Shown: in pieces, positions 3,694 to 42,051 of the stretch | How positions within the stretch are numbered: position 1 is the stretch's first letter | How the letters are laid out: the number at the start of each line of letters is the position of its first letter | From: a virus | Strand: one strand, 5' to 3' | Length of the DNA stretch: 64,000 nt | Virus record (IMG/VR): IMGVR_UViG_3300028840_004626 | Coordinates: 1-64,000 of that record | Translations under genes and position numbers: made by a program | Notes under the pieces: generated by a model | Databases searched by the model: none | Told to the model about the DNA's origin: nothing | Seen by the model: the letters and a program-made list of their open reading frames with translations, nothing else

Positions 3694-3705
3694 GTGGGGA
3701 AGTAC

Positions 3706-4569
3706 ATGTCTGAAGAAAACACTACTGATAAATTAATGAAGCTCAACGGAAGCATAATTAAGTCTGATGGAAGCCACGTAAAGTCTGATTTTTTCAAGTT
3801 TCTTGAGATCAATCTAGATGATTACTCAGATATTGAGTACACCCCAGAAGAGGCCCAGAAGATTCGCTCTCATATGTCTCATCTCTCAACGGGGGCTACA
3901 GCCGTATTGCCCCTCAAGTGTGCGGGGCCTGTTCGCTGCCCATTTGCTGCAAGGTGTCCATTCGTAAAGATAGATAAAGAAAGAAAGAAAAAAGACCCTA
4001 ATGCGAAACAGATGACCCCGGTGACCAAGGATTGCTTAGTGGAGATTAATCTGTTGAACGAGTGGACTAGATTGTATGTAATGGAGTTTGATGTCCCCGA
4101 GAAGAGCTTTTTAGAGCTAATGATGTGTAGAGAGCTGGCAGAGATCGAAGTGATGCTTTGGCGGCTCAACAACAATTTGTCCAAAGAAGGAAATGCAAAT
4201 CTGGTAGACAATGTGGTGATGGGCGTAGATAAAGAGGGCAACCCATTGATGCGCCTAGAGAAGAGCGCTTTCCTAGCAGCAAAAGAGCAACTGACCAATA
4301 GGAAGTCAAAAATCATAAAGGCGATGGTTGGAGATCGACAGGAGAAGTACAAGAAGGAAGCAGCATTGAAGATCAGGGAAGAGAAAGATCCGAGTGTATC
4401 TTCTGCTAAGTTGCGCGGCGAAATCAATCGTCTGCTGAAACAGGCGGAAAGCAAGGTGTTGGCGCTGAAGGAGAGCGAAGGGGATGTCATCGATATCACG
4501 ATGGATCAAATGGACAAGGAGAAGACCGTAACGCCAGAGTCGATAATTGACGAAGTGTCTGAGGAGTAG
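3706..4569 (+). CDS. Conserved phage-type protein with a four-cysteine cluster
   Basis: ATG 3706 is chosen over an in-frame GTG at 3694 because GGGGA at 3696-3700 sits 5 bases upstream of the ATG. The protein has 287 residues. C72, C78 and C84 in the segment LKCAGPVRCPFAARCPF, plus C110, form a compact set suited to zinc or Fe-S binding. Proteins with a similar CPxxxxCPF segment occur in other large phages, to my memory without known function. Residues ~110-250 are helical and highly charged, and the C-terminus is acidic. Its place ahead of the head genes makes a packaging role, such as a small terminase subunit, possible but unproven. Confidence 0.75.
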   Translation: MSEENTTDKLMKLNGSIIKSDGSHVKSDFFKFLEINLDDYSDIEYTPEEAQKIRSHMSHLSTGATAVLPLKCAGPVRCPFAARCPFVKIDKERKKKDPNAKQMTPVTKDCLVEINLLNEWTRLYVMEFDVPEKSFLELMMCRELAEIEVMLWRLNNNLSKEGNANLVDNVVMGVDKEGNPLMRLEKSAFLAAKEQLTNRKSKIIKAMVGDRQEKYKKEAALKIREEKDPSVSSAKLRGEINRLLKQAESKVLALKESEGDVIDITMDQMDKEKTVTPESIIDEVSEE

Positions 4570-4577
4570 TGAGTTAG

Positions 4578-7500
4578 TTGCCAATTCGGGATTTCCTGAA
4601 TCTTTCTCAAATCCGACAAGCGACAAGCCCTGACGAATTGCTGAAACGTTTGCAGCTTGGGGCTCAGGCACTTTCTGTACAATTTAGCGAAGAATTCGAG
4701 CCGGAATGGCGCGAACGTGCTGGCAAGTGGGGTATTAGCTACAATCCTAATACTCGAGTACTTAGCGCACCAACCTGGGCCATCCGGTCTAATTTCGAAA
4801 GCCCAGAGGCCATAAAAGAATTATGGGGAGGGCAGAGGCCTGGCGCCGACCGGATTACTCGCTTAGCGCGCGCAGTACAAGCACACGAATTAGCTGAAGC
4901 TTTTTATCTAGAACAATACGGCGCTACTCATCCTCGATTTAGCTCGCATGTGGCGCGTGATGTTATTCGAGCTGAAATAGGCGTAGCCGCGCAGATGGGT
5001 AAGCAAACCCTGTTCGATATGTTGAAATTCAGACAGGTTGAGCTGGATTATATGCAGCAGTCAGGAAGATTCAATCCATCGTTTAGCCCGCCGCGATTTA
5101 CAACATACAAGACAGACATGTTAAGGATCATGCAGGATGTTAGAAATTGGGCAGGAAAGCAATCTGGAACCACGTTTTCTCAACAGCAATTAGCCGAGCT
5201 AAACAAAAATATCATTAGCAATTTTTCTGATTTGCCTATTCACAGATATTACACATCGATGAGCAAAAGACGTATTGGTAAAATCGGGCTGGGAATGGCA
5301 GCAATAGCCGCTGGCTACTATTCTCTTTTTTCTGGATCGGACGATCAATCCAATGTTGTTCAGGGTATGCAGGAGGGCGGCTTTGCATCCCAACTCCGCA
5401 AGCTTGAAACAGACTTTGGTAGCGGATATCAGGGACAAGAGGGCCCATCGTCTTCAACAGCCACCAATATGGCTTTTGGTGCAGTGTTGGGTGGAGCGGC
5501 AGGATTTGGAATGTCTCGTATGCAGGCTCAGGCCATTATCGAAGAAGACCTGAGTGCATATCCTAGATTGCAGGAATTAAGAAAGATGGGCGCCCGTGGG
5601 GGGTTCGCTCTATATGCGCCCGAGTTTACGGAAATTCAGCAAATTCGTAAGCGTATGCCATGGTGGTCTAGGCTCGATCCACAAATGTACAATCCTATTG
5701 AGGCAATGAAGATCCTAAAGACGCCCGAAGAGTTGTTGAGATTTAAGGGTGTTGCCTATCTACATGAACCCCCGAATTTTTCAGAAGAGATTTGGAAACA
5801 GGCGCTTCGATCTAAAAACATCCTGGGTATGTTTGAACCCGAAGTGGGCACAAACAAGTTAGCAACCTATGAGTGGCTGTCTGAACGCCTGGGTGGAGAC
5901 CAGCTCGCATCTCGAATTCATCCACATACGGTTGGATTTGATCGCTTACCTATTGTGCCATCGGCTCATAGGTCTACCCTATTGGCGGAAATTAAAAAAC
6001 TCAATCAGGAATGGCCCCTCATCATAAAACATGCCGAGGGATCTTTACAGAAAGATGTTTATCTAAATGTGGCAAATATTCCCGATGAGGCTCTCGATGA
6101 CATGCTGAAAAACCCCAAAGACTGGGTTGCACAAGCTAAGCTAGATCTTGCGGATGAATTTCGTGTTGTGACAGTAGGGGACAAGCCGGTTTTCACAGTA
6201 CATCGCTGGGGAACCGAAAGAATGAAGCCTTTTACGGAATTTGCCAAGAAGATTCCTGGCCTAGGTCGAGTTCTGGAAGCCAATCGTTTTCCAGAGAACC
6301 TTTTCGGCGTTAGAGACGAAGAACTACGTGGTCGTCTTGAAACTTTCGCAAGCAAGGTATCGAAGCAGCTACCATATGAGGTTGGCGCATTTGACATTGG
6401 ACTTACTACCGAGGGGCAGTTAAAAGTCATTGAGGCCCAGAGATACTTTGGAACAATTAGAAATCCACTAGTTATTGAGCGCATGACCCAGACTCTTACC
6501 GGAGGCCCTTCGTTTTATGGTCGATTAGCTCGGGGTATGGGTGCTGTAGGTGCAGGCATTCTCGTTGGGGCCGGGATGGCAGCACTATTGAGTAGTGATA
6601 CGAATACTGCTGAAATTACCTCAGATCCAAAATTTATTCTGGCCGAAAATAAGAATTTCGATGGGTTTTGGGAAGATGGTATTGCGGCGCAACTTCGCAA
6701 GGCAAATACCCCCTTTGGTTCTGGCGTTAATCAATTTAAAGTATTGCGCGGATTAGTGCGTGGAGCACTGCAGCAATCCAAGGGCGCTGGGCAGAAAATT
6801 AGACAAAAGATTATAGAGAGAGTTGTCACACCCTTTAAAGAAGGTATGCGCGAGAGCATGGGGGCCCCCGCAACTTTTGAAGAAGCGCTACGTCGCGGCA
6901 AGCAAGTGTCTGTTCTTGGCGAAGGTCTGTATGCGGAATCATCTCTTATGAGAACGGTGTTCCAAGGTCAAGAATATCAGTATGTTCGTAAAAGATTGTT
7001 GCCAGATGCTCGTAAACGAGTCGAGGAAATGATTCGTAATCCTAGGGGACGCTATGAGCCCGGGGCCACAGATCTGATGGGTCGTGCAGAGGTTCCGCTT
7101 GAAACATGGCGCAGGTATCTGCGGGGACTGAACCTGGAGACCGAGGCCAATGTAATGCGGCGCATTGAGGACCTCAATATCGCCCCTAAAGTCTATGCCT
7201 CGTCTCGTCGCGAAATATTTATGGAATATATTCCTCATAAAACCCTTGGTAAGGCGATTATGGATGGTGATGACGTTACCCAGGGAATTATGCAGATTCG
7301 CAAGGCTATGGGGCGTCTATCAGAAGAACATAAAATTTGGAACCTAGACCCAACAGAATTTAACATCATGTTTGACCCCAAAAATAAAAAAGCCTTCTGG
7401 TTGGATTGGGGTTTGGCTGAAAGATATGCAAGATATGGGTTTAAGGCACCTCAGGCAACTACGCGGATGCATCAGGTATTTGGCACGTATCTTAAAAGAG

Positions 7501-7859
7501 CTAGAGGGCGCGTTGTATCTAAATCGGCTGCCACAGTTGTTCCTTCTGGCGGGGCTACTGTGGGAGCTGTTCCGGCTGCCCGTACTCAAGCTACAGTTGA
7601 CCTGATGGGGCCAACACAACGTCTTGAGGGGGCAACTGTGCGCGCCATGCCAGTGGGCGAAAACACGGCAGCGCGAGAAGCAGCCGCATTAGCTAAAACT
7701 GTACGTCGCGCAGAAGCATTTCGTGGACACCAGGCAGCTCTATGGGATGCGGCACATAATGGCGGGCAAAAACATACTACTTCGTATGCCAGAAGATTGG
7801 CGCAAGCCCGCGATCCTTTAGGACAAATGCATGATCCGCTTGGGGTAACCAAGAGATAA
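4578..7859 (+). CDS. 1093-aa protein with ATP-grasp-like and kinase-like domains
   Basis: TTG start with GAGGAG at 4561-4566. Residues 1-230 contain HE at 103-104, H118, H124 and E133, a possible metal-binding set. Hydrophobic Gly/Ala segments lie at ~233-252, ~299-312 and ~652-672. Residues ~425-635 look like ATP-grasp: LIIKHAEGS (K484), DEFRVVTVGDKPVF (526-539) and VGAFDIG...KVIEAQ (602-621); the usual final Asn is Gln621. Residues ~778-950 look like a protein kinase fold: VLGEGLYAESS, K805, E855, hinge FMEYIP, a catalytic-loop-like segment with D924 and N929 at kinase spacing, and D943-W-G in place of DFG. A motif (QLRK...FGSG) occurs twice, at ~267-283 and ~700-716. It sits beside Gly/Ala-rich proteins and the terminase, so an internal or ejected virion protein is likely. 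Catalysis is inferred from motifs only. Confidence 0.7.
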   Translation: MPIRDFLNLSQIRQATSPDELLKRLQLGAQALSVQFSEEFEPEWRERAGKWGISYNPNTRVLSAPTWAIRSNFESPEAIKELWGGQRPGADRITRLARAVQAHELAEAFYLEQYGATHPRFSSHVARDVIRAEIGVAAQMGKQTLFDMLKFRQVELDYMQQSGRFNPSFSPPRFTTYKTDMLRIMQDVRNWAGKQSGTTFSQQQLAELNKNIISNFSDLPIHRYYTSMSKRRIGKIGLGMAAIAAGYYSLFSGSDDQSNVVQGMQEGGFASQLRKLETDFGSGYQGQEGPSSSTATNMAFGAVLGGAAGFGMSRMQAQAIIEEDLSAYPRLQELRKMGARGGFALYAPEFTEIQQIRKRMPWWSRLDPQMYNPIEAMKILKTPEELLRFKGVAYLHEPPNFSEEIWKQALRSKNILGMFEPEVGTNKLATYEWLSERLGGDQLASRIHPHTVGFDRLPIVPSAHRSTLLAEIKKLNQEWPLIIKHAEGSLQKDVYLNVANIPDEALDDMLKNPKDWVAQAKLDLADEFRVVTVGDKPVFTVHRWGTERMKPFTEFAKKIPGLGRVLEANRFPENLFGVRDEELRGRLETFASKVSKQLPYEVGAFDIGLTTEGQLKVIEAQRYFGTIRNPLVIERMTQTLTGGPSFYGRLARGMGAVGAGILVGAGMAALLSSDTNTAEITSDPKFILAENKNFDGFWEDGIAAQLRKANTPFGSGVNQFKVLRGLVRGALQQSKGAGQKIRQKIIERVVTPFKEGMRESMGAPATFEEALRRGKQVSVLGEGLYAESSLMRTVFQGQEYQYVRKRLLPDARKRVEEMIRNPRGRYEPGATDLMGRAEVPLETWRRYLRGLNLETEANVMRRIEDLNIAPKVYASSRREIFMEYIPHKTLGKAIMDGDDVTQGIMQIRKAMGRLSEEHKIWNLDPTEFNIMFDPKNKKAFWLDWGLAERYARYGFKAPQATTRMHQVFGTYLKRARGRVVSKSAATVVPSGGATVGAVPAARTQATVDLMGPTQRLEGATVRAMPVGENTAAREAAALAKTVRRAEAFRGHQAALWDAAHNGGQKHTTSYARRLAQARDPLGQMHDPLGVTKR

Positions 7860-7915: not shown

Positions 7916-8308
7916 TTGGTTGGATGGGCTTTAAAGCGCGCTTTTGGATTAGGCCTGAGTGCCGCTAAGGTTGGCGGTGAGGTTGCGTGGCAGGGTGGCA
8001 AAGCGGGAGTAAAAGCAGCCCCTTATGCTATCCGTGCTGGAATATGGAATGTGGGTCAGTATGCTTCTTTTGCGCTTAAGCATCCAAGAGCTACCATGGG
8101 TATTGGGGCGGCTGGTCTTGGGGCTTACGCCCTGAGTGAAACAATGCCTCAAGATTCCGAGTGGACTGGAGAACAACGCATGGCAGCCGCAGTGGGTCTT
8201 GGCACTCCTTCTACTGGATTTCCTGTAGGACAGGGTGCTACACGGGAAGCTTTTCAGCAAAGTACAGAGGGGTTGGTTTTAGCGCTACACAGAGGGAGAC
8301 GTAGCTAA
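7916..8308 (+). CDS. Small Gly/Ala-rich hydrophobic virion-type protein, 130 aa
   Basis: The TTG start is well supported by AGGAGG 8 bases upstream. The protein is rich in Ala, Gly and Val, with a basic N-terminus (WALKRAFGLGLSAAKVGGEV) and one likely membrane-spanning or membrane-associating stretch, residues ~58-78 (ATMGIGAAGLGAYALSE). The end, FQQSTEGLVLALHRGRRS, is compact and basic. It forms a set with the next two genes, which have similar composition, and is translationally coupled to the following gene (TAATG). Such proteins in large phages are usually virion or DNA-ejection components. That role is inferred from composition and place. Confidence 0.75.
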   Translation: MVGWALKRAFGLGLSAAKVGGEVAWQGGKAGVKAAPYAIRAGIWNVGQYASFALKHPRATMGIGAAGLGAYALSETMPQDSEWTGEQRMAAAVGLGTPSTGFPVGQGATREAFQQSTEGLVLALHRGRRS

Positions 8309-8910
8309 TGGCTAGTGCGTGGACATCCTGGGGCAAGGTGCCCGGATCTATTAAGGGCGCAGGTTCCACAATTAAGGGTGGTATCCAACAATATCTAGGC
8401 AGTGCTGCTCATGCCAAGGGAATGAGCTGGGCAGCTGGCGGATATGGGTTTGGCAAAGATATCGCATCTATCCAGAGTAAGGGATGGAGATATTTTGGGC
8501 GCGGAGTAGGCTTTGCCTTTTTAGGGTATGAGGCTTATGCAGGATACCAAAGAGGCGGAATTCTTGGTGCAGCTACGGGGGTTGCTACCCAAGCAGCCAT
8601 CAATTATGGGATTGGGGCAGCATGGGGAGCTATTGGCGGAACTGCTGCGCTAGGAGCTATCGGAACAGCTGCTGCAGTTGCAGCTCCTATCGCCGGAGCG
8701 TGGGCCTACAATAAATATGGGTCACAAGTCGGCAGGGAGACTTTTATGCGACATGCGAGAACTGAGCTTGGGGCTGGGGTTGCAGACCCATTTGGCACCG
8801 TTTCTACGATGAGGCGCAGAAGTGTATCTGCCCTCAATAGTTCAAGATTAAATGGACAAACAGCTCTTGGCAATGAAGCCGCTATGAGCTACAGTCCTTA
8901 TTTTCGCTAG
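8308..8910 (+). CDS. Gly/Ala-rich hydrophobic virion-type protein, 200 aa
   Basis: The ATG overlaps the previous stop (TAATG). Residues ~70-135 are an almost unbroken Gly/Ala/Ile/Tyr stretch (GIGAAWGAIGGTAALGAIG and neighbours), like glycine-zipper membrane segments. The C-terminal ~50 residues are soluble and basic (TMRRRSVSALNSSRLNGQ, then ALGNEAAMSYSP). That kind of tail is familiar to me from virion proteins of other large phages, but I cannot name the family. A pore-forming or ejected internal protein is plausible. It sits with two similar small genes between the ATP-grasp/kinase-like gene and the terminase. Confidence 0.75.
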   Translation: MASAWTSWGKVPGSIKGAGSTIKGGIQQYLGSAAHAKGMSWAAGGYGFGKDIASIQSKGWRYFGRGVGFAFLGYEAYAGYQRGGILGAATGVATQAAINYGIGAAWGAIGGTAALGAIGTAAAVAAPIAGAWAYNKYGSQVGRETFMRHARTELGAGVADPFGTVSTMRRRSVSALNSSRLNGQTALGNEAAMSYSPYFR

Positions 8911-8921
8911 GAGGATTTTAA

Positions 8922-9467
8922 ATGCTAACTAAAATGATTCAGGGAGCATTTAGTCGAGGTGCTGTTCAAGCAGCTATAGGTTCTACTGTGGTGGGACGAG
9001 GGACTACGTGGGGCGCAGCAATTGGTAGCGATGCTCTCCGCTATGCTTCTTCTGGGCTAAGTGGATTAGCGGGCATGGGCCCAACAGCTCTGTATTCCAC
9101 CCTTGGCGCAACAGCCGGTGGCGCATGGGGCATGGTATCTGACGATACTTCGGTTTTAGGTGGAGCATTGGCTGGTGCTGCGATTGGTGCTGGTGGATAT
9201 GGCTTGACAAGACTTGCAGCCGGTGGGCTGACCAAGGCTCTCAATCCTATCAAGAGCACGCTAAAGGGTGGCGCTAAGGCTGCTGCTGCTCCTACTGCCG
9301 GTGCTGCCGTAGCAGGTCCAGGTTTTGAGATGAGTGCTTCACGCAGTATGCAACAGAAACAAACGCTTTTAAATTATCTTCAGGGTGAAGCAGCTGCAGC
9401 ACAACAGATGACTTCTCCCAGATATGCAGTTCCCAAGCGGCGCGGATGGTTTAGTCGCAACCGCTAA
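8922..9467 (+). CDS. Gly/Ala-rich hydrophobic virion-type protein, 181 aa
   Basis: ATG with AGGAGG directly behind the upstream stop codon. Residues ~15-125 are rich in Gly, Ala, Thr and Leu, with glycine-zipper-like segments (LAGAAIGAGGYGLTRLAAGG). The C-terminus is helical and basic (MQQKQTLLNYLQGEAAAAQQ, then PKRRGWFSRNR). It is related in composition to the two preceding proteins, although no clear alignment is visible. Probably a membrane-active virion component. It is the last gene before the terminase, from which it is separated by 20 bp. Confidence 0.73.
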   Translation: MLTKMIQGAFSRGAVQAAIGSTVVGRGTTWGAAIGSDALRYASSGLSGLAGMGPTALYSTLGATAGGAWGMVSDDTSVLGGALAGAAIGAGGYGLTRLAAGGLTKALNPIKSTLKGGAKAAAAPTAGAAVAGPGFEMSASRSMQQKQTLLNYLQGEAAAAQQMTSPRYAVPKRRGWFSRNR

Positions 9468-9487: not shown

Positions 9488-11509
9488 ATGTCGATTAACC
9501 TCAATCAATGCACATCCGAGTGTAGTAGTTGTATTCGTAGATATATTTCCAAACATCGCCTCAAAAGAGGCGATTCCTTTGATATACCCTGTCACGGTAT
9601 TCCTCTCGAATATTTGCCAGCAGATGTCCGCTCTAGCGTGAGCGGAGATCCAGAACTGGCTATTTCTATGATTGATGCTGTTACGTGGGCTGGTAAATTT
9701 TTAGATTGGCATTGTTATGATCCGATAGGAGAACACTGGAAGCGCAAAAGCTTAGAAGGAAGTATGCCAACTGGCTTAGCACAATACGAAGAGGGGGTGG
9801 CACTAGCAGGGAAATCTGTTTTTAATCGGCCCTATCAGGGAGAGATGCTTAGATGTTCGGCAAAATATAAAGTTTTTCGTATTGGGCGGCAAGCGGGCAA
9901 AACAGAAGTGCTGTGTGTTTCGGTTTTACACAATGTTTTTACTCACAAAAATTTTCGTTGCGTAATTATTGCCCCTTATGATTCTCAGGTTGAGTTGATT
10001 TTTGAACGTTTGCGCACCTTTATTGATAACAATGCAATGTTAAGTAATTCAGTGCGGCGCAAGGTTAAAAAACCTACTCATCAAATTGAATTGCATAATG
10101 GTTCTATTATTATCGGTTTTACAGCCGGTACTAAGTCGAAGCAAGAAGCTGGAGCTTCTCGTGGACAACCTGCACACATGTTGGTATTTGACGAGGCAGA
10201 TTACTTATCTGCTGGCGACTTGAATGCTGCCTTAGCTACCATCACAAACTTTCCCGAAGCAACTGTATGGATGTCATCTACTCCAGCCGGTAAACGAGAA
10301 AAGTTCTTTGAATCATGTCGCGACCCGATGTATCGCGAATTTCATTTTCCATCTCAGATTAACCCGAATTGGACAGAAGAAAGAGAGAGATTCTTTAGAA
10401 GTCAATTGACAGAAGACGGATATAAACATGAAATTCTAGCTGAGTTTGGGGAACAAGAAGAAGGGGTTTATCAGAACAAGTATATTGAATTGGCTCAAGA
10501 TGATTATGACTACGGCGACTATAAGCCCAATCCAAACTGGATTTATATGATGGGGGTTGACTGGAACGACGTCAAGATCGGCACAACTTTAGCCGTAGTT
10601 GGATTTGAGCCTGCTTCTGGCTTATTTCGTTTAGTTGACAAAGTCGTTATGACTCGATCTGAGCGTACCCAATTGTCTGCATGCCAAAAGGTAGCCGAAT
10701 TAAACAGGTTTTGGAATCCAACAATGATTTATGTAGATAAGGGATTTGGCACGACACAGATTGAGGTATTGCAGAAGTTCGGTTACGACTCTCTTGCTGG
10801 CGAAGGAGCAAATTCTCCTAATGCTAGATTGCGTAATATCGTTAAGGGATATGACTTTGGTGGTTCTATTGAAATACGAGATCTGTTCACCAAGCAGCCG
10901 ATTTCTAAAAAGGCGAAGCCATTTCTGATTGAGAATTCGGTGCGTCGTTTTGAACAGCTTACATTTAAGTATCCATCGTCAGATGAGTTATTTACAAAAG
11001 CTCTCCAGGGCTATATAGTTAAAAGGATTACAACTACAGGAGTTCCTGTTTATGAGATGCAGGACGAATCTGTTGGAGATCACTTCCTGGATGCGGTAAA
11101 CTTAGCTCTTGTAGCTTTTACTTTAGAGAAGTCAGCATTTGGGGCTCCGAAGCACGAGGCGCGTATTTCATTTTCTGCTGAGATTGGAGCTATACTTAGG
11201 GGAGACAAAGATCCACGCAAAGCATTGCAAGAAAAAGAAGCTCATCGCCCTAAGATGGGGCGTGCCGCAGCCGTAGAGGGTGGATCGGATAGACTAGTGG
11301 TTCCGGAACATGGCGAATTGCCAATGAATACTGCATCTGTTGATGGGGCCAGGGGGCCAGTAAAGCTATGGTCTTGGCCGGGTTTTGGCAGGGATGCTCC
11401 TAGGCCTAGAGTTAGAAGCCTAAGGGAAGCAATGTCAGATGCATCACAGCGGCTTAATAGACAACCTTCTCGCAGGGGTTCATCCCGTCCGAGGAGAAAA
11501 AATATTTAA
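9488..11509 (+). CDS. terL: Terminase large subunit (packaging ATPase and nuclease)
   Basis: This is the DNA-packaging motor, which cuts concatemeric DNA and pumps it through the portal. The ATPase domain shows a Walker A GRQAGKT (residues 133-139) and a Walker B LVFDEAD (232-238, D235 and E236). The RNase H-like nuclease domain shows acidic residues at D358 (GVDW), D417 (YVDKGFG) and D531/D535 (GDHFLDA). The length of 673 residues is slightly above the family norm. Two additions stand out: an N-terminal cysteine set (C8, C12, C15, C35 followed by H36) that could hold zinc, and a ~100-residue basic, Arg/Ser/Pro-rich tail. No intein or frameshift was seen. The start lacks a strong ribosome site. 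Confidence 0.96.
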   Translation: MSINLNQCTSECSSCIRRYISKHRLKRGDSFDIPCHGIPLEYLPADVRSSVSGDPELAISMIDAVTWAGKFLDWHCYDPIGEHWKRKSLEGSMPTGLAQYEEGVALAGKSVFNRPYQGEMLRCSAKYKVFRIGRQAGKTEVLCVSVLHNVFTHKNFRCVIIAPYDSQVELIFERLRTFIDNNAMLSNSVRRKVKKPTHQIELHNGSIIIGFTAGTKSKQEAGASRGQPAHMLVFDEADYLSAGDLNAALATITNFPEATVWMSSTPAGKREKFFESCRDPMYREFHFPSQINPNWTEERERFFRSQLTEDGYKHEILAEFGEQEEGVYQNKYIELAQDDYDYGDYKPNPNWIYMMGVDWNDVKIGTTLAVVGFEPASGLFRLVDKVVMTRSERTQLSACQKVAELNRFWNPTMIYVDKGFGTTQIEVLQKFGYDSLAGEGANSPNARLRNIVKGYDFGGSIEIRDLFTKQPISKKAKPFLIENSVRRFEQLTFKYPSSDELFTKALQGYIVKRITTTGVPVYEMQDESVGDHFLDAVNLALVAFTLEKSAFGAPKHEARISFSAEIGAILRGDKDPRKALQEKEAHRPKMGRAAAVEGGSDRLVVPEHGELPMNTASVDGARGPVKLWSWPGFGRDAPRPRVRSLREAMSDASQRLNRQPSRRGSSRPRRKNI

Positions 11510-11521
11510 GGGGGAAGGCTA

Positions 11522-11959
11522 ATGGCCCTCAAGCTTTATAAAACTGCTGATAAAGACGATTATTTTGATTCTCTAGACCCATTCACTGTTACGGTAGATG
11601 GGCGCATAGGCGGTATCCAGGATCACAAGATTTATTTGCGTAATGACGATGCCAGTTACTGGTATGATAACGTTTCTGTGTCATTATCAGACACTTCTCC
11701 TTCAAGCCATGTAGATAGCACTCAAGAGGGCTGGTACTGGAAGCTGTCTCAGCGAGATATTGAACTGACCCATGAAGAATGGACAGCCATTACTCCTGGG
11801 ACTACACTTACGCTCACAGAGTCAATAGGAAATTCGCAATTGGGAGATGTTGTGACATTTATTCCAATCTGGGTTCGGGTTGCAATTCCTCGTGGGCAGG
11901 ATATCGAAACTCTGACAACTATCACATTCCAGATTACTGCTACGGAGTATTTGATTTAA
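11522..11959 (+). CDS. Beta-rich virion protein, paralogue of the 55590 gene product
   Basis: ATG with GGGGAAGG upstream. The 145 residues are predicted all-beta: alternating hydrophobic strands, few helices and no Cys. The segment HKIYLRNDDASYWYDNVSV matches KTIYLRHDGASEITNVGVY in the protein encoded at 55590-56135. The ends also correspond: RVAIPRGQDIETLTTITFQI against RVQVPTAEDTTGTRQFDQVI. The two are therefore likely paralogues with one Ig-like or jelly-roll fold. One sits next to the terminase and the other in the fibre region. A surface decoration or attachment role is a reasonable guess. Confidence 0.75.
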   Translation: MALKLYKTADKDDYFDSLDPFTVTVDGRIGGIQDHKIYLRNDDASYWYDNVSVSLSDTSPSSHVDSTQEGWYWKLSQRDIELTHEEWTAITPGTTLTLTESIGNSQLGDVVTFIPIWVRVAIPRGQDIETLTTITFQITATEYLI

Positions 11960-12684
11960 TGGCTAAAAAAGAAAAAACACATCTGCCCCTCTCTGACGAT
12001 ACCGGACGAGATTTTGCAGATGATGATTTTATTCTCAACTATCGACCCAAGATTGATTTTGTGGCCCCAGAACACGTGCCATCCGAAAAACAACTATCTT
12101 CAGAAGACGTAGATGATGTTCAGCAAAGCTTGCGGGAGAGAACTCGTAATTTGATCGCTGGATTTGAGGCGCTTGGGAAGCTAGCCGAATTGGCAGAAAC
12201 ACGGATTGATCAGAGAATGCAGGCACTTGGAGGCCTGGATATTCATCTTGACCCGTATAAGGACGCAGGGGTTATTATGGCCCTTAAGCGTCGTTTTCCG
12301 GATAAGGTTGATACCTCTGTTATAACTTATGAAGATTACAAAGAATGTGTTAAGGGGCAAAAGAATGCAACAGCGGCACAGCCCGGATTAACAGTGCAAG
12401 ATATGCGTAATGCTCAGGCCGATCCCCTGCGAACAGATTTTGGTGGTTTGGGGCTACGCCCAGGCGAAGCGCGTCCCGAGATTAATTCAACCGGGACAAC
12501 TGTTGAGCCCGTCAACCTGGTTGAGTTTCAGGCGAATGCACTTATCACATTATTTGGTATGCTTAAGGATATGATTACAGATTTGGTTCTCTCATTGATC
12601 CCTGGTGGCGGCGGTGGCGGCGGAGACGACGAGGGTAGCAATGAAGAGGGCGAAGGGGAAGGCGAAGGAGAAGGGTTGCCTTAA
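11959..12684 (+). CDS. Hypothetical head-module protein with acidic Gly/Glu tail, 241 aa
   Basis: The frame is open from further upstream, but the ATG at 11959 overlaps the preceding stop (TAATG) and begins the plausible protein. The N-terminal ~50 residues are acidic and look disordered. Residues ~50-130 are helical (LRERTRNLIAGFEALGKLAE). A hydrophobic stretch near ~190-215 (NALITLFGMLKDMITDLVLS) leads into a run of Gly and then a GEGEGEG tail. No family is recognised. It lies between the terminase and portal genes and is coupled to the next gene by another TAATG, so a head or internal virion role is likely. Confidence 0.75.
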   Translation: MAKKEKTHLPLSDDTGRDFADDDFILNYRPKIDFVAPEHVPSEKQLSSEDVDDVQQSLRERTRNLIAGFEALGKLAELAETRIDQRMQALGGLDIHLDPYKDAGVIMALKRRFPDKVDTSVITYEDYKECVKGQKNATAAQPGLTVQDMRNAQADPLRTDFGGLGLRPGEARPEINSTGTTVEPVNLVEFQANALITLFGMLKDMITDLVLSLIPGGGGGGGDDEGSNEEGEGEGEGEGLP

Positions 12685-16753: not shown

Positions 16754-19039
16754 ATGGCAAAGTCGTTTAAAAATTTCATTAAGTTCGTGGATTCGGTAAG
16801 TTTTAACCCAGAGATTAAATCTGAGGTTAAAGACTATTTTGCCAATCCACAGAACAGCGCTCAGACGTTGCGTATCAGAATTGCTGCAACGCATGCGGGC
16901 AAGATTACCCGTAACAATGGGTTTTACCTACCCCATAAGATGAGATCTGGCGCAGCCTCTTTTACGGATCAGTATCCCAAGCCAATTCAGGTTCACCACG
17001 AATCTCATGAAGATCCAGTTGGTCGAGTGATTCAGGCCAGATACGTTGATCTGAGTGGTGGCTTCCGGGACTCGGTAAAGGATTCGTTCTCAGTATCTAA
17101 AGATAAGCAACTTCAGGATTTTGTTGCTGGCAATATGTCCAACGAAAAACTTATTGATTTTGCGCGAAAAACTTTTATTAACGACGAATCTATCGTTGAT
17201 GATCCCGATTATGAGGGTTTGGGTTATATTGAATTGGTTGCTGATATTTCCGATCCTGCTGCCATTCAAAAGGTATTAGACAAGCGTTATCTGACTGGTT
17301 CAGTTGGGGCTACGACTGACAGCGCTGTATGTTCTGTTTGTAAAACGGATTGGGCTGGGGATGATGGTCGTTGTGAGCATATTCCGGGAAAAGTTTACGA
17401 TAAGAAGAAGTGCGTTCTTATTGCGGGTGATCTCAGGTATGACGAGTGGTCTTTTGTGAACAAGCCCGCAGACACACATTCTTCTGTCATCGAAGTCCAT
17501 AATGGTGGCATGCAGGACTTTGTTAAAGTCGAAAAGGGTTCTCAGGGCGAAGTACCTGAAGTGAACCTCGTAATTGATACTAAGGAGGAAAAAGGTATGT
17601 TGTTTAAAGATGCATTTGCTTTGGTCTCCAAAGACGAGAGATTTCAAGGTCTCGAGAACTTGGAAGACTGCGTGAAGCAACTTCTGGACAGCCAAGAGGA
17701 CCTCAACGAAGAAAGGCTGCTTGAACTGATGTCCGAGCAGCTCACGCAGGAAGAACCTGCCAAGGACGAGGTTCAGGACGAGGCTACCGAGGATGCTTCC
17801 GAAGAATCGGCAGCTCAAGAGGGCACAGACGACACCCAGTCGGTTGAAGATGAAGATCAATCGAATGAGGACGCTTCCGATGAGGAATCAGAAGAAGATG
17901 TGCAAGATGAGGCTGGCGACCAGACTGAAGAGTCTGATGAAGAGGTTGAGGATGATGTTGAAGAGGAGGTTCAAGACGAAGAGGAAGAGGAGTCTGAAGA
18001 AGAGGATACTGATCCTGTAGCAGATTTCTTTGGCGATTCCTATCAAGAACTCATTGAGGACGATGCTTCCGGGCGCGAATATGCTGAAATGCTGTTTGGG
18101 CTTTTGGATGGCGTTGAAGATGAGGGTCGCGACGAAGTCGTTAAAATGATTAACGATGCCAAGCTCTCGTCTAAGCAGCGCAAGGCGTTGCCGAGCTCCT
18201 CGTTTAGTGGACCAGAACGCTCGTTCCCGGTTCCTGATTGTGCCCATTATACTGCTGCTTTGCGTTTGCTGGGGCGCTACAAGGGACCCGGCGACAAGTC
18301 TCGTATTCGTGCATGTATTGAGCGCAAGGGCAAGCGGCTTGGTTGTTCGGGGGCCAAGGATGAAGCGCAAGATGCCGAGCAGATTTTAGACCAATTTTCA
18401 GTTGAATACTTTGATGGGTATTCTGACGATGAATTGATTAAGATGCTAGAAGGCCTTATGGCTTGTCTAGATGAACGAAAATTAGATTGTAAGTGTCACG
18501 ATGAAGATGAAGAAAAGTCTAGATTGCAAGATCGTGTAAGCTCTCTTCAGAAGGAGATTAAGTATCTGCATGAAGACATCGACAATTTGAGCAACGTGTT
18601 GGCTGATTCCGAGAAGACTCTTAGGGGGCTTAAGGTCGAAAAGATTATTGATCTTAAGAAGTTAACCGGTGTTGAGGTAGACCCAGTTAATATCTCCGAC
18701 GAGCTACAGGATAAGTCGTCCTCTGACGTGGACGAAATCCTTAAGGATCTCACGGGTCAAGTTGACATAGATAAAATCGCTGATAAACTAAACTCTGGTT
18801 TGTCAAATAATCCTCAGGGTACCGTGGAAGATCCCACGGCCCAAGTAGACAACACGACAGAAAAAAACAGTGAAGGTAGTAAGCCAAAGTACGATCCGAA
18901 GGTAGCGGAACAAGCTTTGGCGAATTATGTGGAGCTAAGATTTAAGAAAGGTCAGCAAGTAGCAGATGCCTATCTCGCGGATTTGCAGACGCGAGGAGTC
19001 CTGCCGGTGGGCGGGAAAAAAGTTGAGGATAAATCCTAA
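16754..19039 (+). CDS. Prohead protease / scaffold protein, 761 aa
   Basis: Likely organises capsid assembly and is then cut or expelled. The N-terminal ~260 residues look like a serine prohead protease-type domain: H81, H82 and H85 in QVHHESHEDPVGRV, and S183 in LTGSVGATTDS; this Ser-His pairing is inferred. Directly after it comes a Cys/His set (C193, C196, C207, H209, Cys near 220) suited to zinc. Residues ~330-425 are a very acidic Glu/Asp tract. Then SFSGPERSFPVPDCAHYTAA (~476-495), a segment known from phage scaffold proteins, followed by a coiled coil (~580-640) and a helical C-terminus. It lies immediately before the capsid genes, the usual scaffold place. Confidence 0.72.
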   Translation: MAKSFKNFIKFVDSVSFNPEIKSEVKDYFANPQNSAQTLRIRIAATHAGKITRNNGFYLPHKMRSGAASFTDQYPKPIQVHHESHEDPVGRVIQARYVDLSGGFRDSVKDSFSVSKDKQLQDFVAGNMSNEKLIDFARKTFINDESIVDDPDYEGLGYIELVADISDPAAIQKVLDKRYLTGSVGATTDSAVCSVCKTDWAGDDGRCEHIPGKVYDKKKCVLIAGDLRYDEWSFVNKPADTHSSVIEVHNGGMQDFVKVEKGSQGEVPEVNLVIDTKEEKGMLFKDAFALVSKDERFQGLENLEDCVKQLLDSQEDLNEERLLELMSEQLTQEEPAKDEVQDEATEDASEESAAQEGTDDTQSVEDEDQSNEDASDEESEEDVQDEAGDQTEESDEEVEDDVEEEVQDEEEEESEEEDTDPVADFFGDSYQELIEDDASGREYAEMLFGLLDGVEDEGRDEVVKMINDAKLSSKQRKALPSSSFSGPERSFPVPDCAHYTAALRLLGRYKGPGDKSRIRACIERKGKRLGCSGAKDEAQDAEQILDQFSVEYFDGYSDDELIKMLEGLMACLDERKLDCKCHDEDEEKSRLQDRVSSLQKEIKYLHEDIDNLSNVLADSEKTLRGLKVEKIIDLKKLTGVEVDPVNISDELQDKSSSDVDEILKDLTGQVDIDKIADKLNSGLSNNPQGTVEDPTAQVDNTTEKNSEGSKPKYDPKVAEQALANYVELRFKKGQQVADAYLADLQTRGVLPVGGKKVEDKS

Positions 19040-36102: not shown

Positions 36103-39100
36103 TTGGCTAATCCTAAAGAAGTATCACAAGTTACTGACTTAATGGTTCCGGCATCACGACCTGGTGTGGTTGCGGGAGAACAAGATACCTGCATCATTAA
36201 CGACGTTATGCTACAGATTCCCCCTCAGAGAATCAGGGTTAGCAAACAATCGTTGAACTATGAATGGCATACCCTTCGGACCACATTTGCCCAGAAAGCC
36301 AAATCGGGTCACGGCAAGGTATTGATTACGCTAGATCTAATTTTTGAGGGCAATGCTGCAATTAACGGGCAAATGCGTCCGTTAATCGCCGGCCTGAGGG
36401 CCACGCCCTTTTGTGTCTGTTATAACAAATATCTACAAGATTCTCTTATGGGTATGGAGAATGCGAAATACCTTTCAGAAAGCAAAACTCAATATAAGCA
36501 CCTGAGACCGTTAGCATTGGCTGTCACCGGGATGCATGTCCAGACTATTGAAGGGCATCCCGAAAGTGTCCGCGTAGTATTAGAGTTTATATGGTTTAAT
36601 TACTCTCCTTATATGCCAGTGTGGGCGTATAAAGTAGGAGAGCTGCATGATAGGCCAGGTACTGCGAATAAGTCTAGTCTCTGGAAGAAATTTTATGAGC
36701 CTTTTATGTACTCACGCCATAAAATTGACTGGCCTCATCAGCCCGGATCTCGGAATAGCAAGACATCTATTTTCTTTCGCGAATTCGCTACATTTCCACG
36801 AGTTAATGCATCAGGCTATCGTGCCGTAAGACAGCTTCTTGAATTACTCAAGAACAATCCGACTGTAGTTATTCAAACACTTAACAAGGTATTGGCTGAT
36901 GAAGAGATTGAGTGGACTGATCAGAATATTTTTGATGTTGTATATCGAGAACTAGCTAACAACAAAAATGTCAACGAGGAAATTCGCAAACGAATGAAAC
37001 AAAGTTCGCTGCGCAACGGGATGATCACTCGTGCTGCAGAGGGCAAGGCCAAAGATGCCCTGAGCGCTATCGCAAGAGACACATACAACGATTCTGTTAC
37101 CGGACAACACTCTTGGTCTCAGATGAGAGAAAAAGAAGTTGAGGATGCTATTCGCGAGCTCACAAAGAGACAGGAGGATGCTGCTCAGCAGGAAAAGATG
37201 TTGCAGTATCTTGGAGTTAGCAGCGAGAACTCGAGCGAATATAAAAAACTAGATACCTTTAGTTTATCTGGAGAGGTGCCCCATCGTGGAAGCCAGCTAT
37301 TCATTGGAGGGTTTGATGTATATGGGCGCAAGAACAAGCTAGACATTGTCCCTGAAACCGGCTTTATTATTGAATCTATTGCTGTGACATTTTCTAATGC
37401 TTTGGCTGTAATTCCGATGATGGCCTATAGATATCCTACAGCCCAACATATTGGCAGTAATGACGTAGAAGTATCGATGGTACTTAATTGCACTAATGAT
37501 GCTGCGCGTAGGCTGCAGGCATTATATGATGTCATAGAGGCTACGTCACTCAAGTATAAGATGATCCCGCAGGGATTTTTAAATCCGTGGATTTATAACG
37601 ACCTTATTAATTTCTTTGGCCTAAAAGAGTTCTTGACCAAAAATTTAGTTATCGAAACTTACCCAGGTCAGCCCGGGCGCAGTCGTGCTATCTTAACCCT
37701 TTCTCATGCCGGAGTACTCAGTTCCTCTGGCCTTAGGGACCCAGAAGCTTTAGTGCAGGAATACATTTCTACCTCTAGTACAGTTCAGGGGCGCATGAAT
37801 AAAGTATTCAGTTCCCTGATTCGAGAAAAGGGCCAGACCGATAGTTTGCTGACACCTGCTTCTTTAAAATACTACTTTATTGAACCCAAGATCAATAAGT
37901 TCAATCCTCGTTATGCTGCAATAGGCAATTTATTGCAAGACTATTGTGATGAGTATAACGGGTTTCTAAAGAGGGTTCACGGCGTGATGTGGGAAATGCC
38001 AGAAGAGGGCACTGGTGCTGGATCTTATGCTCCAGTGGAAGCTGAAGCTGAGGGCCTGGATCAAGCTAATTATAATGCACTCATGGATCTGGTTGAGTTT
38101 TCTTCAGAGCATGGTTTTATTGCCAATATCAATAGAATTCAAAATTCAGTTACTGATCGAGATTCAGCTATGAACGCTGAGGCTCAGTCTAGGGCTCGTA
38201 CACGAAGGGCTCAAAGCGTAGACCAGATTACGAAACAGAGACGTCGATATCGGTCACTTAAAAGAGTATTCGGTATTGATGACAAGGGTCGGAAGGATTG
38301 GATTGAGCTTAATAAGCAGGCATATAATGTTGCTGATCCGAATTTTGATTTTCTCAAGAAGGTCTATCTCAACAAGTATCAGGAAGGCATCCAGCGTGCA
38401 TTTGATACCATTATGAAGCAATATCCGGATCATCCAGATTTTGCTTCTGTGTTTCAGGTTATTGAAGATTCTCCTTTACGCAAGGGAACGATGACATATA
38501 TGGATTTTCGTCCACAGATCAAATCTGTATATGGATATGTTAATCCATCAGAAGGGATTACCCCCTCAAAAAATAGGCGTGGCGGCACTGTCAAAGAAGA
38601 GGAACTGATCCAGTTTAATCCAGATCTATATTTGTACTACCCCGTATTTGATGGGGGGATTGTTAATCTATCTGAAGGCAAGATTATTGATTCTGATGTC
38701 ATCAACAAAGCTAGAAAACTTAGTTTAAAGACATTTGACGAGGCGCAGCAATCTACCAATGATTGGTTTAAGGGTAACTACTTATCTAGCTTACGTAATG
38801 CATCGATTTCTCAGCCATACGATAATCTCGAAAAGCGACTAAAGAATGGAGAGTTGCAGGCTCCTTTTTATGAGGGGGAGTCTTGGAAGAACTCAACAAG
38901 AACCACAGATATCCAGAAGACTGTTGTTGTAGATGATCTTAAGCAGGGGCATATCAACTATCCTCGACCCGGTATCATGCGTGGTCAAAACGAGATCAGC
39001 GTAGCCAATACGATGTCAGCATTGTGGCAAGGCGCGGATGCTGGAGCTAAACCCTATAAGCCAAGCGATAGACAACGTTCATCGCCACCAGTCTCCGGAA

Positions 39101-42051
39101 CAACTAAAGAGAGAGCGAAACGCATCTTTCCTTATGTAAAGCAAGCAGCACAGAAATGGGATTTAGATCCTGGGCTTATTTATGCTGTTATCGAAAAAGA
39201 AAGTGGCGTTGGTCGCAATATGGGACCTAACCAGGTAACCGCTACTGGGTATATGCAGTTATTGCAATATGAGATCAATCCGCGAACCAGGAAACGAGAT
39301 GTTCCAAGTGAAGCACAGCAATTTGCTACGCAAAGAGGACAGACCCTATTGGATCCTGGAACCAATATAGATCGAGGCTGTTTTCTCTTGAATCGCTATT
39401 CTAAGAGGGCCTCCAAGAAGGGATTGCGCAGAGGTAGTAACGAGCATACAGAGCTGTTATTGGCATATTATAATATGGGTCCCGGTATCGTTGACCAATG
39501 GCAAAGCGCAAAAAAGAAAACAGCTCGTGGACAATCTTTGTCTAGCAAAGAAGAGCGTCGCATTGGCGAACCCCCCGAGACTGGTGGACAATCAGGTGGT
39601 TTCGGATCTGTAGCATCCCCTACGGGGCTTATTCCGCTGCGCACATACAAGCGCTACACAAACAAGATTATGTCTAATGTGCCTAAGTGGCGCAAGTTTG
39701 TAGCTGAGCAGAATGCGAAGTCTGGGACCCCGTCTGCGTCACAACAAGCACGCATAGATCGTGGTAGGGAACAGGCGCTTAATACAGATGTCACCTCTAG
39801 TACCCTGTCTCCTATTACTGAGGCCATTAAATCATTCGAAGAAGACCTCTATCATGGTCAGGCTCAGAGCCTGATACGTGCCTATCCAGCATTTAAGTTA
39901 TATTTTATCGAAGATGATAGCCAGGAAAAGCGTTTAGCCTTCGATGATTTTTTCAGCTATAACGCTGTGCAGTCTATTCGTGTAGTGAGAAGTCGCAATA
40001 TCCCCGCCGACATGTGCGAGATCGTATTAACTAATATATCTGGCACCCTTACCAATCGTAAATTTCGCCAGGGCCGCGATGGTGGCTCCGCCCCAAGGGA
40101 TTCTTCTGGTCGTATCGTACAAGAAAGTATTAACCCTAGTCTTTCTGGAACCTCCATGGAGAATCCGATTGCATCCCTATTGCTTCGCGAGGGAACACAT
40201 ATTTCTTTAAGGTTGGGTTATTCTAATGATCCAGATAGGCTTGAACTAGTCTTTACTGGCGTTATTACAGAAATCGAATTCTTGGGCTCAGAAGATTTGA
40301 TTCGCATTTTAGCTCAAAGTTACGCCATTGAGCTCGTACAAGATATCAAGGGCTTTGAAAAGCCGAAAAAGGTAGGCTCTTGGGAAATACTCGGCTGGGG
40401 ACCTGCTGGACTTCAGGATGCATCGACATCTAAAGTTCTAGAAGAGATGATTACACAGCCAGAGGTTGTCCACTTTGGGCGATGGAAAGCATTGGCACAA
40501 AATGCGACGCCTCTACGCGAGTTGCTTACGAACAAATATCACTATGTGCCCACACCACAGGACGATAATATTTTCGCACCACCTCCAGAAATGGAGTCTG
40601 AGGTGCTTTTGAATGAGGGCTGGTTTATTGATTCAACTAGTTATGTAATCTACCGAACAACCATTTGGGATATCTTTCAGGAAATGACGCTCCGTCATCC
40701 CAATTTTGTTGCTTTGCCTGTTCCTTACAAGGGTAGGGATACAGAGCGAATGACTATGTTTTATGGTTTACCTAATCAGTTGTATTTTGCACGTGATGCC
40801 GACTATAAAGAAGAGAGCGCATCTAATGTCCTTAGGGACCGCATCTCATATCTTGAGCGTAAACAGAAAGAGGCAAAGGCTGTTTCTAGTGGACTCTATA
40901 GGATGGAGGGATCTAACTGGGGCCCTGGCAAGCGCAAGGCTACCGATGATGAAGAGGCACGCGAATTAGCGGCGAAGTTTACAGCTGAATCTATCGGGCG
41001 TACCATAGATCGTATTAAAAATCAGAGATTGAGACTTGCCAAGAGGTCTGGGTATATTAAGCCATTTAGAAACTACCATTTATTAACCAGCGACTATCAT
41101 ATTATCTCTAACAATATTCAGGCTAATGCTCGTGATGTGGCCAATACGATTGTTGTTCAATATGGTGCAGACGCCGATCCTTCTGAGATAACCAGCAGTA
41201 TTGGTGGAGGGGAAGTTGCTGTGGCGGGTGCAGACGAAAACGTAACTGTTAAACTGGATTCTGCTCTGCCAACAGAGGAGATTCGGACGCAAATCGCCCA
41301 CTTTCTTAACGTGACAACGGAGGATATGGCCAAGCGCTATGGGCTTGGAATGCTGCTCAGGAATGTGCGCGATATCTATAAGGGCGAAATTGCGCTAATT
41401 GGCAATCCCAAGATTAAGCCTTGTGATATCTGCTATCTTTTTGATCAATACAACGACATGATTGGTCCAGTGGAAGTTGAGCAGGTTACACACGTGTTTG
41501 ATTTTCAACACGGATTTCGCACAGAGGTCAAGCCAGATATGTTTGCCCAAGTAGGAGAATGGGCCCTATTAAGTACAGCTGATGCAATGGGTGTAGTTAT
41601 GGAAGGGGCCCTCAAGCATGTCTTTGGAAGTAGTGTGCTAGGAAGTGGGGCTGGTCGCGCTGTTTTATCTGGGCTCAAATATGGCTCTCGGGCGGCAGCA
41701 TTCTTTGGTCCAGCGGGCCTTATTGCTGCTGGTGCGGTACACTATATAGGCGGGTTTATGAGCCAGGCCATTGTAAACTTTACACAAATGGGTTATCCGC
41801 TGGTACTCAGTCCACTACAACATCGCGGACGCGTATTTGCGGGTGGCGTGCCTACTAGTAAGTTGCCAAAATCTATGTGGAATCGTATGTTTGGCGAATG
41901 GACGCCAATGGCAGAACAGGGTTTTGCGATGTGGGCAGAAGATAAAGTTGATGAAGTCATGGTTGGACTCAAAAAGCTGGGTGGTCTTTGGGGTGGTGGC
42001 TATTCTGAGGGCGATTTCTGGAATGATGGGAATACTTTAAAAGTTAAGTAG
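36103..42051 (+). CDS. Giant baseplate hub with embedded lytic transglycosylase, 1982 aa
   Basis: TTG start with GAGGGG upstream. Two N-terminal regions (~20-170 and ~405-560) have tube-like or LysM-neighbour-like strands (AVTFSNALAVIPMMAYRYPT, VEVSMVLNCT). Residues ~1005-1195 form an SLT-type lytic transglycosylase: AVIEKESG with probable catalytic E1033, GYMQLL, NIDRGCFLLNRY and LLAYYNMGPG; it would cut peptidoglycan glycan strands during entry. Residues ~1255-1820 follow the phage late-control gpD/gp27 hub pattern (FKLYFIED, TGVITEIEF, TTIWDIFQEMTLRHPNFVAL). A hydrophobic Gly/Ala segment lies near ~1855-1890. The single chain therefore combines hub, cell-wall enzyme and possibly membrane anchor. 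This is far longer than usual hub proteins, which keep the lysozyme on a separate spike. Confidence 0.85.
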   Translation: MANPKEVSQVTDLMVPASRPGVVAGEQDTCIINDVMLQIPPQRIRVSKQSLNYEWHTLRTTFAQKAKSGHGKVLITLDLIFEGNAAINGQMRPLIAGLRATPFCVCYNKYLQDSLMGMENAKYLSESKTQYKHLRPLALAVTGMHVQTIEGHPESVRVVLEFIWFNYSPYMPVWAYKVGELHDRPGTANKSSLWKKFYEPFMYSRHKIDWPHQPGSRNSKTSIFFREFATFPRVNASGYRAVRQLLELLKNNPTVVIQTLNKVLADEEIEWTDQNIFDVVYRELANNKNVNEEIRKRMKQSSLRNGMITRAAEGKAKDALSAIARDTYNDSVTGQHSWSQMREKEVEDAIRELTKRQEDAAQQEKMLQYLGVSSENSSEYKKLDTFSLSGEVPHRGSQLFIGGFDVYGRKNKLDIVPETGFIIESIAVTFSNALAVIPMMAYRYPTAQHIGSNDVEVSMVLNCTNDAARRLQALYDVIEATSLKYKMIPQGFLNPWIYNDLINFFGLKEFLTKNLVIETYPGQPGRSRAILTLSHAGVLSSSGLRDPEALVQEYISTSSTVQGRMNKVFSSLIREKGQTDSLLTPASLKYYFIEPKINKFNPRYAAIGNLLQDYCDEYNGFLKRVHGVMWEMPEEGTGAGSYAPVEAEAEGLDQANYNALMDLVEFSSEHGFIANINRIQNSVTDRDSAMNAEAQSRARTRRAQSVDQITKQRRRYRSLKRVFGIDDKGRKDWIELNKQAYNVADPNFDFLKKVYLNKYQEGIQRAFDTIMKQYPDHPDFASVFQVIEDSPLRKGTMTYMDFRPQIKSVYGYVNPSEGITPSKNRRGGTVKEEELIQFNPDLYLYYPVFDGGIVNLSEGKIIDSDVINKARKLSLKTFDEAQQSTNDWFKGNYLSSLRNASISQPYDNLEKRLKNGELQAPFYEGESWKNSTRTTDIQKTVVVDDLKQGHINYPRPGIMRGQNEISVANTMSALWQGADAGAKPYKPSDRQRSSPPVSGTTKERAKRIFPYVKQAAQKWDLDPGLIYAVIEKESGVGRNMGPNQVTATGYMQLLQYEINPRTRKRDVPSEAQQFATQRGQTLLDPGTNIDRGCFLLNRYSKRASKKGLRRGSNEHTELLLAYYNMGPGIVDQWQSAKKKTARGQSLSSKEERRIGEPPETGGQSGGFGSVASPTGLIPLRTYKRYTNKIMSNVPKWRKFVAEQNAKSGTPSASQQARIDRGREQALNTDVTSSTLSPITEAIKSFEEDLYHGQAQSLIRAYPAFKLYFIEDDSQEKRLAFDDFFSYNAVQSIRVVRSRNIPADMCEIVLTNISGTLTNRKFRQGRDGGSAPRDSSGRIVQESINPSLSGTSMENPIASLLLREGTHISLRLGYSNDPDRLELVFTGVITEIEFLGSEDLIRILAQSYAIELVQDIKGFEKPKKVGSWEILGWGPAGLQDASTSKVLEEMITQPEVVHFGRWKALAQNATPLRELLTNKYHYVPTPQDDNIFAPPPEMESEVLLNEGWFIDSTSYVIYRTTIWDIFQEMTLRHPNFVALPVPYKGRDTERMTMFYGLPNQLYFARDADYKEESASNVLRDRISYLERKQKEAKAVSSGLYRMEGSNWGPGKRKATDDEEARELAAKFTAESIGRTIDRIKNQRLRLAKRSGYIKPFRNYHLLTSDYHIISNNIQANARDVANTIVVQYGADADPSEITSSIGGGEVAVAGADENVTVKLDSALPTEEIRTQIAHFLNVTTEDMAKRYGLGMLLRNVRDIYKGEIALIGNPKIKPCDICYLFDQYNDMIGPVEVEQVTHVFDFQHGFRTEVKPDMFAQVGEWALLSTADAMGVVMEGALKHVFGSSVLGSGAGRAVLSGLKYGSRAAAFFGPAGLIAAGAVHYIGGFMSQAIVNFTQMGYPLVLSPLQHRGRVFAGGVPTSKLPKSMWNRMFGEWTPMAEQGFAMWAEDKVDEVMVGLKKLGGLWGGGYSEGDFWNDGNTLKVK

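Follow-up and report, generated by a model that had tools for sequence, protein, structure and literature searches.

We find that the protein encoded by nucleotides 4578-7859 of the window, the whole 64,000-nucleotide stretch of viral DNA analysed here (positions 1 to 64,000 of IMG/VR virus record IMGVR_UViG_3300028840_004626), belongs to a family of multi-enzyme phage polyproteins in which a short recurring motif stands between predicted enzyme modules that are swapped between viruses. What had looked like one odd kinase-like stretch turns out to belong to a group of multi-enzyme phage proteins, at least 46 after removal of redundancy, that have the boundary motif in common, and the kinase is one of several interchangeable enzymes that these giant proteins combine. 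The sequence-only reading of this DNA had seen the kinase but neither the two modules before it, ATP-grasp and peptidase-like, nor the recurrent linker motif, nor the wider polyprotein family with its swappable modules.

The reading frame opens with a TTG start codon, which is preceded by a plausible GAGGAG-like ribosome site at 4560-4565, and its product is arranged as peptidase-like module, motif, R2K ATP-grasp domain, motif, kinase and tail:

4578-7859, + strand: multi-enzyme polyprotein gene, 1093 aa
4671-5177, + strand: peptidase-like module PEP1, aa 32-200; HELAE...SSH...VIRAE, a predicted metal-binding pattern
5271-5327, + strand: Gly/Ala-rich hydrophobic segment before motif copy 1, read from the sequence and under the hydropathy cut-off
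5325-5435, + strand: linker motif copy 1, LFSGSDDQSNVVQGMQEGGFASQLRKLETDFGSGYQG; 64 bits
5538-6542, + strand: R2K-type ATP-grasp domain, aa ~321-655; K484, E527xR529, D606, E619xQ621
6525-6602, + strand: hydrophobic, membrane-like segment, aa 650-675; hydropathy 1.83
6624-6734, + strand: linker motif copy 2, degenerate, GFWEDGIAAQLRKANTPFGSG; 27 bits
6882-7547, + strand: protein-kinase-like domain, aa ~769-990
6915-6938, + strand: glycine-rich loop LGEGLYAE (LGEGLYAES = aa 780-788)
6990-6992, + strand: K805, beta-3 Lys, conserved in 22/23 aligned copies
7143-7145, + strand: E856, alpha-C Glu, 23/23
7347-7364, + strand: catalytic loop D924-P-T-E-F-N929; D 23/23, N 20/23 (Gln in the remainder)
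7404-7412, + strand: D943-W-G945; D 23/23, G 23/23
7650-7859, + strand: C-terminal tail with the ...AAxxGGxxHT... signature found family-wide

The GGxxH tail is common to the polyproteins and is possibly a sorting signal. PEP1 is common to the window protein and six others (L060, L054, L037, L013, L067 and L115), and modules of this type follow the pattern HExxE...SH...VIxxE; PEP1 had no match in Pfam, and peptidase activity is a guess. The ATP-grasp domain of the window matches Pfam R2K_2 at E 1.4e-4 to 2e-4, under the cut-off, and the same domain is present in the viral relatives L054, L046 and L039 (E 1e-34 to 1e-43), with R2K_2 matched by all four members at E<=1. The window copy keeps K484, E527xR529 and D606, and the ExN of R2K is ExQ in all four. 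Because the AlphaFold2 model of this part is poor (pLDDT 48.9), the fold search made with it, in which the PDB matches were ATP-grasp enzymes such as RimK, LysX and Ddl, is only corroborative. The kinase had earlier been drawn across 6050-7430; it is indeed there, but it occupies only about 6882-7547, and 6050 to about 6540 belongs to the R2K ATP-grasp ligase domain.

The predicted kinase landmarks in this protein are not chance, since the same domain occurs in other viral contigs and is conserved in a 23-row alignment of divergent relatives with 15-27% overall identity. With the window kinase domain as sole query, phmmer returned matches in L060 (8e-17), L045 (9e-14), L072 (2e-12), L020 (3e-11), L070 (3e-11) and L053 (2e-10). 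The landmarks run in the order first proposed, with K805, D924, N929 and D943-W-G945 at the residue numbers originally given and a hinge, FMEYIP, that begins at F881, whereas the alpha-C Glu is E856 and not residue 855, which is Thr. At the His position of HxD the window copy has Asn, which occupies that position in 10 rows of the 23-row alignment.

Structure prediction and profile search both bear out the kinase fold, which for aa ~769-990 we regard as settled at the level of sequence and model. AlphaFold2 (23 family members) produced a two-lobed kinase with pLDDT 84.5 and pTM 0.78, and Foldseek against the PDB placed A. fulgidus RIO1 at the top (E 5.7e-9, probability 1.0), followed by COQ8A and then by JAK and CK2, with TM 0.48-0.54 for the top RIO1/COQ8A matches. 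The window copy matches Pfam RIO1 at E 9e-4 and 19.4 bits, slightly under the curated cut-off of 22 bits, and its homologue L054 lies above the curated cut-offs of both Pkinase (42.0 vs 31.7) and RIO1 (24.2 vs 22). Searched against PDB sequences, the window domain reached CK2 at E 0.01, and the kinase family profile reached 2,097 distinct chain sequences at E<=1e-3 (best 3e-14). In the model, DWG is followed by a single long helix (aa ~957-986) and then by disorder, and the predicted C-lobe is therefore minimal.

We believe that the kinase is probably active, because its catalytic residues are conserved. The earlier suggestion of an inactive structural relic can draw on the Asn that replaces the His of HxD and on the weak Pfam score of the window copy; however, K805, E856, D924, N929, D943 and G945 are near-completely conserved across the 23 divergent relatives, with K, E, D and DxG kept in essentially all members and N in 20 of them despite the low identity, which makes a relic highly improbable. 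A kinase that acts on a small molecule (an antibiotic, nucleotide or lipid) and not on a protein has more in its favour, given that Pfam APH is matched by 11/23 and ABC1 by 16/23 family members, that a His stands two residues after the catalytic Asp in 13/23 aligned copies, as in the HxDxHxGN small-molecule kinases, and that COQ8A stands second to RIO1 among the PDB fold matches. We nevertheless find such a substrate rather doubtful, since the window copy reads DPTEFN and has RIO1 as its match both in Pfam and at the top of the fold search, and since the family profile finds its best PDB scores among protein kinases.

The wider family was assembled by a DNA-pattern scan followed by motif alignment over viral contigs; an initial three-row motif scan retrieved known loci only. 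After deduplication it comprises 46 nonredundant proteins with 114 motifs. Kinase modules stand beside varied partners in 24 of the 46 proteins, and DEDDh-type exonuclease modules were counted in 18, SNase in 16 and PD-(D/E)XK in 8, with peptidase-like modules (6 and 5), GNAT (4) and R2K (4) recognised by module profiles. The motif, FSGkDDxYNTIEGLxHGGxAxxLRkxxTDFGSGWxG, is 36 residues long and occurs twice in the window protein, between its three modules. Its invariant positions are G, R and TxFGSG, and the Glu of TIEG is replaced by Gln or Lys in some copies, the window having VVQG. Among neighbouring module pairs, a motif intervened in 45 of 48 (in shuffles, mean 24.4 and maximum 34). Moreover, none of the 114 motifs fell inside a recognised module (shuffle mean 27.7, minimum 13), a count that is partly circular because some module profile seeds were cut at motif edges, and which is cleaner for the kinase and for the SNase domain as defined by Pfam. 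A kinase-only scan, whose query lacked the motif, added three new loci (L115, L116 and L121), and in all three the kinase lay within a motif protein with the terminase gene downstream; the 291-aa upstream neighbour described below was present in L115 and L116, the only two in which it was scored since L121 begins within the polyprotein gene, and L115 and L116 apparently carry the same protein. These sequence comparisons show that the motif marks the boundaries of the predicted modules in this phage family and that the modules are swapped between viruses.

At the sensitivity used, a search of 84,980 host genomes for the motif gave zero matches, as did a search of 50,697 phage records at E<=1, and isolated phages offered no usable match to the full-length protein or to the kinase domain alone. 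A rule that a transmembrane segment precedes every motif was considered and rejected, as such stretches precede only 24% of motifs, compared with 4% of positions drawn at random. Pfam Intein_splicing and LAGLIDADG were both matched by one of the polyproteins.

The polyprotein gene is part of a conserved packaging cluster and lies shortly upstream of the gene for the terminase large subunit (TerL), the gene order being 291-aa protein, polyprotein, Gly/Ala-rich membrane-like proteins, TerL, portal, protease-like protein and major head protein. Its neighbours in the window are:

3694-4569, + strand: upstream neighbour, 291 aa, with a Cys motif; adjoins the polyprotein gene in 32/37 nonredundant loci with room
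7916-9467, + strand: three Gly/Ala-rich membrane-like proteins, order conserved
9488-11509, + strand: TerL; downstream of the polyprotein in 29/30 nonredundant loci with room

The position of the gene looks like an accessory-enzyme slot that the window lineage has expanded into motif-spaced polyproteins, because more distant TerL relatives and the Acinetobacter phage ME3 hold simpler enzymes there or none. For example, the same slot holds an exonuclease plus PD-(D/E)XK protein in L102, an SNase in L113 and a lone peptidase-like protein in L107, and L088, assigned to Alicyclobacillus shizuokensis, is without such an enzyme. In L088, L089, L102 and L107, the enzyme slot that lies between the homologue of the 291-aa protein and TerL is either unoccupied or less elaborate. 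Among isolates with a related TerL, the same position is taken by ME3_11, an exonuclease-like protein (weak match) with a hydrophobic end, and by the membrane-like KLEB27-3 gp006. Membership of ME3_11 in the same exonuclease family was rejected as not significant (E 0.37; Pfam RNase_T E 0.04). A TerL search of host genomes gave five weak links, including Candidatus Fermentibacteria, Epsilonproteobacteria, Alicyclobacillus and a gammaproteobacterium, which are insufficient to name a host.

Several further features of these loci were noted. A gene for a dual-specificity phosphatase with a hydrophobic N-terminus (Pfam DSPc E 1.8e-14) is found about 4 kb before the kinase gene: the window start cuts it, leaving 1-285, and the near-identical contig L011 has it whole at 1428-1961; a partnership between phosphatase and kinase is speculation. 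The membrane-like proteins downstream (window 7916-8308; L004, L089, L102 and L107) share an LxLHxxR-like C-terminal tail, possibly a sorting signal. The protein directly upstream of TerL in L102 (8829-9875) and L107 (8667-9692) carries, by eye, a GDxxD...GNHE metallophosphoesterase-like pattern. TerL reading frames are unusually long in several relatives, and reading of the sequences suggested insertions resembling inteins in the ME3 counterpart of the 291-aa protein (L007:4069-5370) and in the KLEB27-3 TerL (L006:5290-8247). Elsewhere in the window, 36103-42051 encodes a tail-region protein of 1982 aa that matches a transglycosylase SLT domain (Pfam E 2.3e-11) and an endolysin PHROG (E 1.8e-61), and the reading frame at 11779-12684 overlaps that at 11522-11959, its true start probably lying later.

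We lean, with modest confidence, towards reading the polyprotein as enzyme cargo akin to the polyvalent proteins, with an active-looking kinase of minimal C-lobe, that is packaged and delivered together with the DNA. On this view it would be expressed late, at the time of the packaging genes, and would enter the cell along with the DNA after transport in the head, whereupon the kinase and the peptide ligase may act on host molecules as infection begins, in the way proposed for polyvalent proteins and established for T4 Alt. Presence of the polyprotein in the particle is plausible because of the position of its gene in the packaging and head cluster; packaging itself, ejection and host targets are steps that we infer, as is any role of the motif in packaging or loading, tethering or processing. 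The enzyme classes of the family overlap those of polyvalent proteins (Iyer et al. 2017, PMC5512222), which supports the cargo reading. Against it count that no matched Pfam family is a polyvalent-protein domain by name, that the 50,697 phage records gave no motif match at E<=1, and that the nearest isolates with a related TerL, ME3 and KLEB27-3, hold just an exonuclease-like or a membrane-like protein in this place. Going one step further, we tentatively entertain the possibility that the motif acts as a portable signal for head loading (or tethering), by which arbitrary enzymes can be strung into one injected cargo protein, a natural protein-delivery cassette system in which kinase and peptide ligase would be one payload combination.

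The same gene position could also mean that the polyprotein acts in the producing cell and is not delivered, being tethered to membrane or prohead and clearing host DNA, modifying host proteins late or aiding packaging and head assembly. The gene adjoins TerL and membrane-like proteins, nuclease modules are common in the family and hydrophobic stretches are enriched before the motif, all of which would suit such a role; we judge it unlikely, however, as variable, swapped enzymes fit conflict cargo better than a conserved assembly function and as the slot holds no enzyme in some related loci, such as the Alicyclobacillus locus L088. Similarly, the motif might be a processing site, at or near which a prohead protease or the peptidase-like module of the polyprotein itself cuts and thereby frees single enzymes. 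The motif contains TIE|G, which resembles head-protease sites, and the protein encoded at 16754-19039 in this lineage is related to the KLEB27-3 'prohead protease'. In addition, phage P1 DdrB is processed before packaging (PMC5512222). Yet the Glu of this site varies and the invariant positions of the motif lie elsewhere, and most of the proteins lack a recognised peptidase-like module, so that cleavage at the motif, too, appears improbable to us.

Multi-enzyme conflict proteins, phage R2K ligases and RIO-like kinases are already known. Our literature search found no description of the 36-residue motif, of the motif-spaced cassette form, of a kinase-R2K fusion or of the spread of the family across a TerL-linked lineage, and for the domain mix the 2017 polyvalent-protein paper (PMC5512222) was the sole match. 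If it is true that the cargo is injected, the family would amount to a catalogue of phage enzymes directed against hosts at entry, including a probable peptide ligase beside a kinase, and would offer a short motif with a directly testable role in cargo loading or release.

Among known systems, the atypical RIO, ABC1 and APH kinases share with the window kinase the two-lobed fold, a small C-lobe without recognisable activation segment, D-(x4)-N and DxG, whereas the window domain sits in a phage polyprotein and scores under the Pfam RIO1 cut-off. Its DPTEFN resembles the RIO catalytic loop, and its metal loop, DWGLAE, appears to differ from that of RIO. The Shigella OspG-type minimal kinases likewise have a reduced C-lobe, and Pfam OspG is matched by 5/23 members, but this is a weak profile match only and the biological setting is another one. 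The ATP-grasp module shares its predicted core, the ExR and the catalytic Asp with the R2K clade of ligases, of which the R2K.2 family has already been reported in tailed phages (Burroughs et al. 2015, PMC4431377); it differs in being a polyprotein module and in its ExQ. T4 Alt, a head-packaged ADP-ribosyltransferase cited in PMC5512222, is the model for host-modifying enzymes on entry, although Alt is a single enzyme of other chemistry whose packaging, unlike the predicted packaging of the polyprotein, has been shown.

Finally, there is a close parallel with the polyvalent proteins encoded by phages and conjugative elements, for which packaging has been predicted (Iyer et al. 2017, PMC5512222). 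Like the window family, these proteins unite a range of enzymes (peptidase, kinase and GNAT among them) in a single chain, have them swapped between elements and are encoded beside the portal-terminase packaging system, and their kinase, like ours as modelled, has lost the C-terminal kinase subdomain and kept the active site. We do not file the window kinase as a polyvalent-protein kinase because it lacks two of the described marks: there is no His-Asp insert, the H/N-x-D spacing being standard in the 23-row alignment, and there is no N-lobe Gln, the invariant hinge-strand residue being Glu E883 (alignment column E124). What further sets the window family apart from the polyvalent proteins is the use of the 36-aa motif and hydrophobic stretches as module spacers, which the consulted passages of that paper do not describe, together with the fusion of R2K ligase and kinase.
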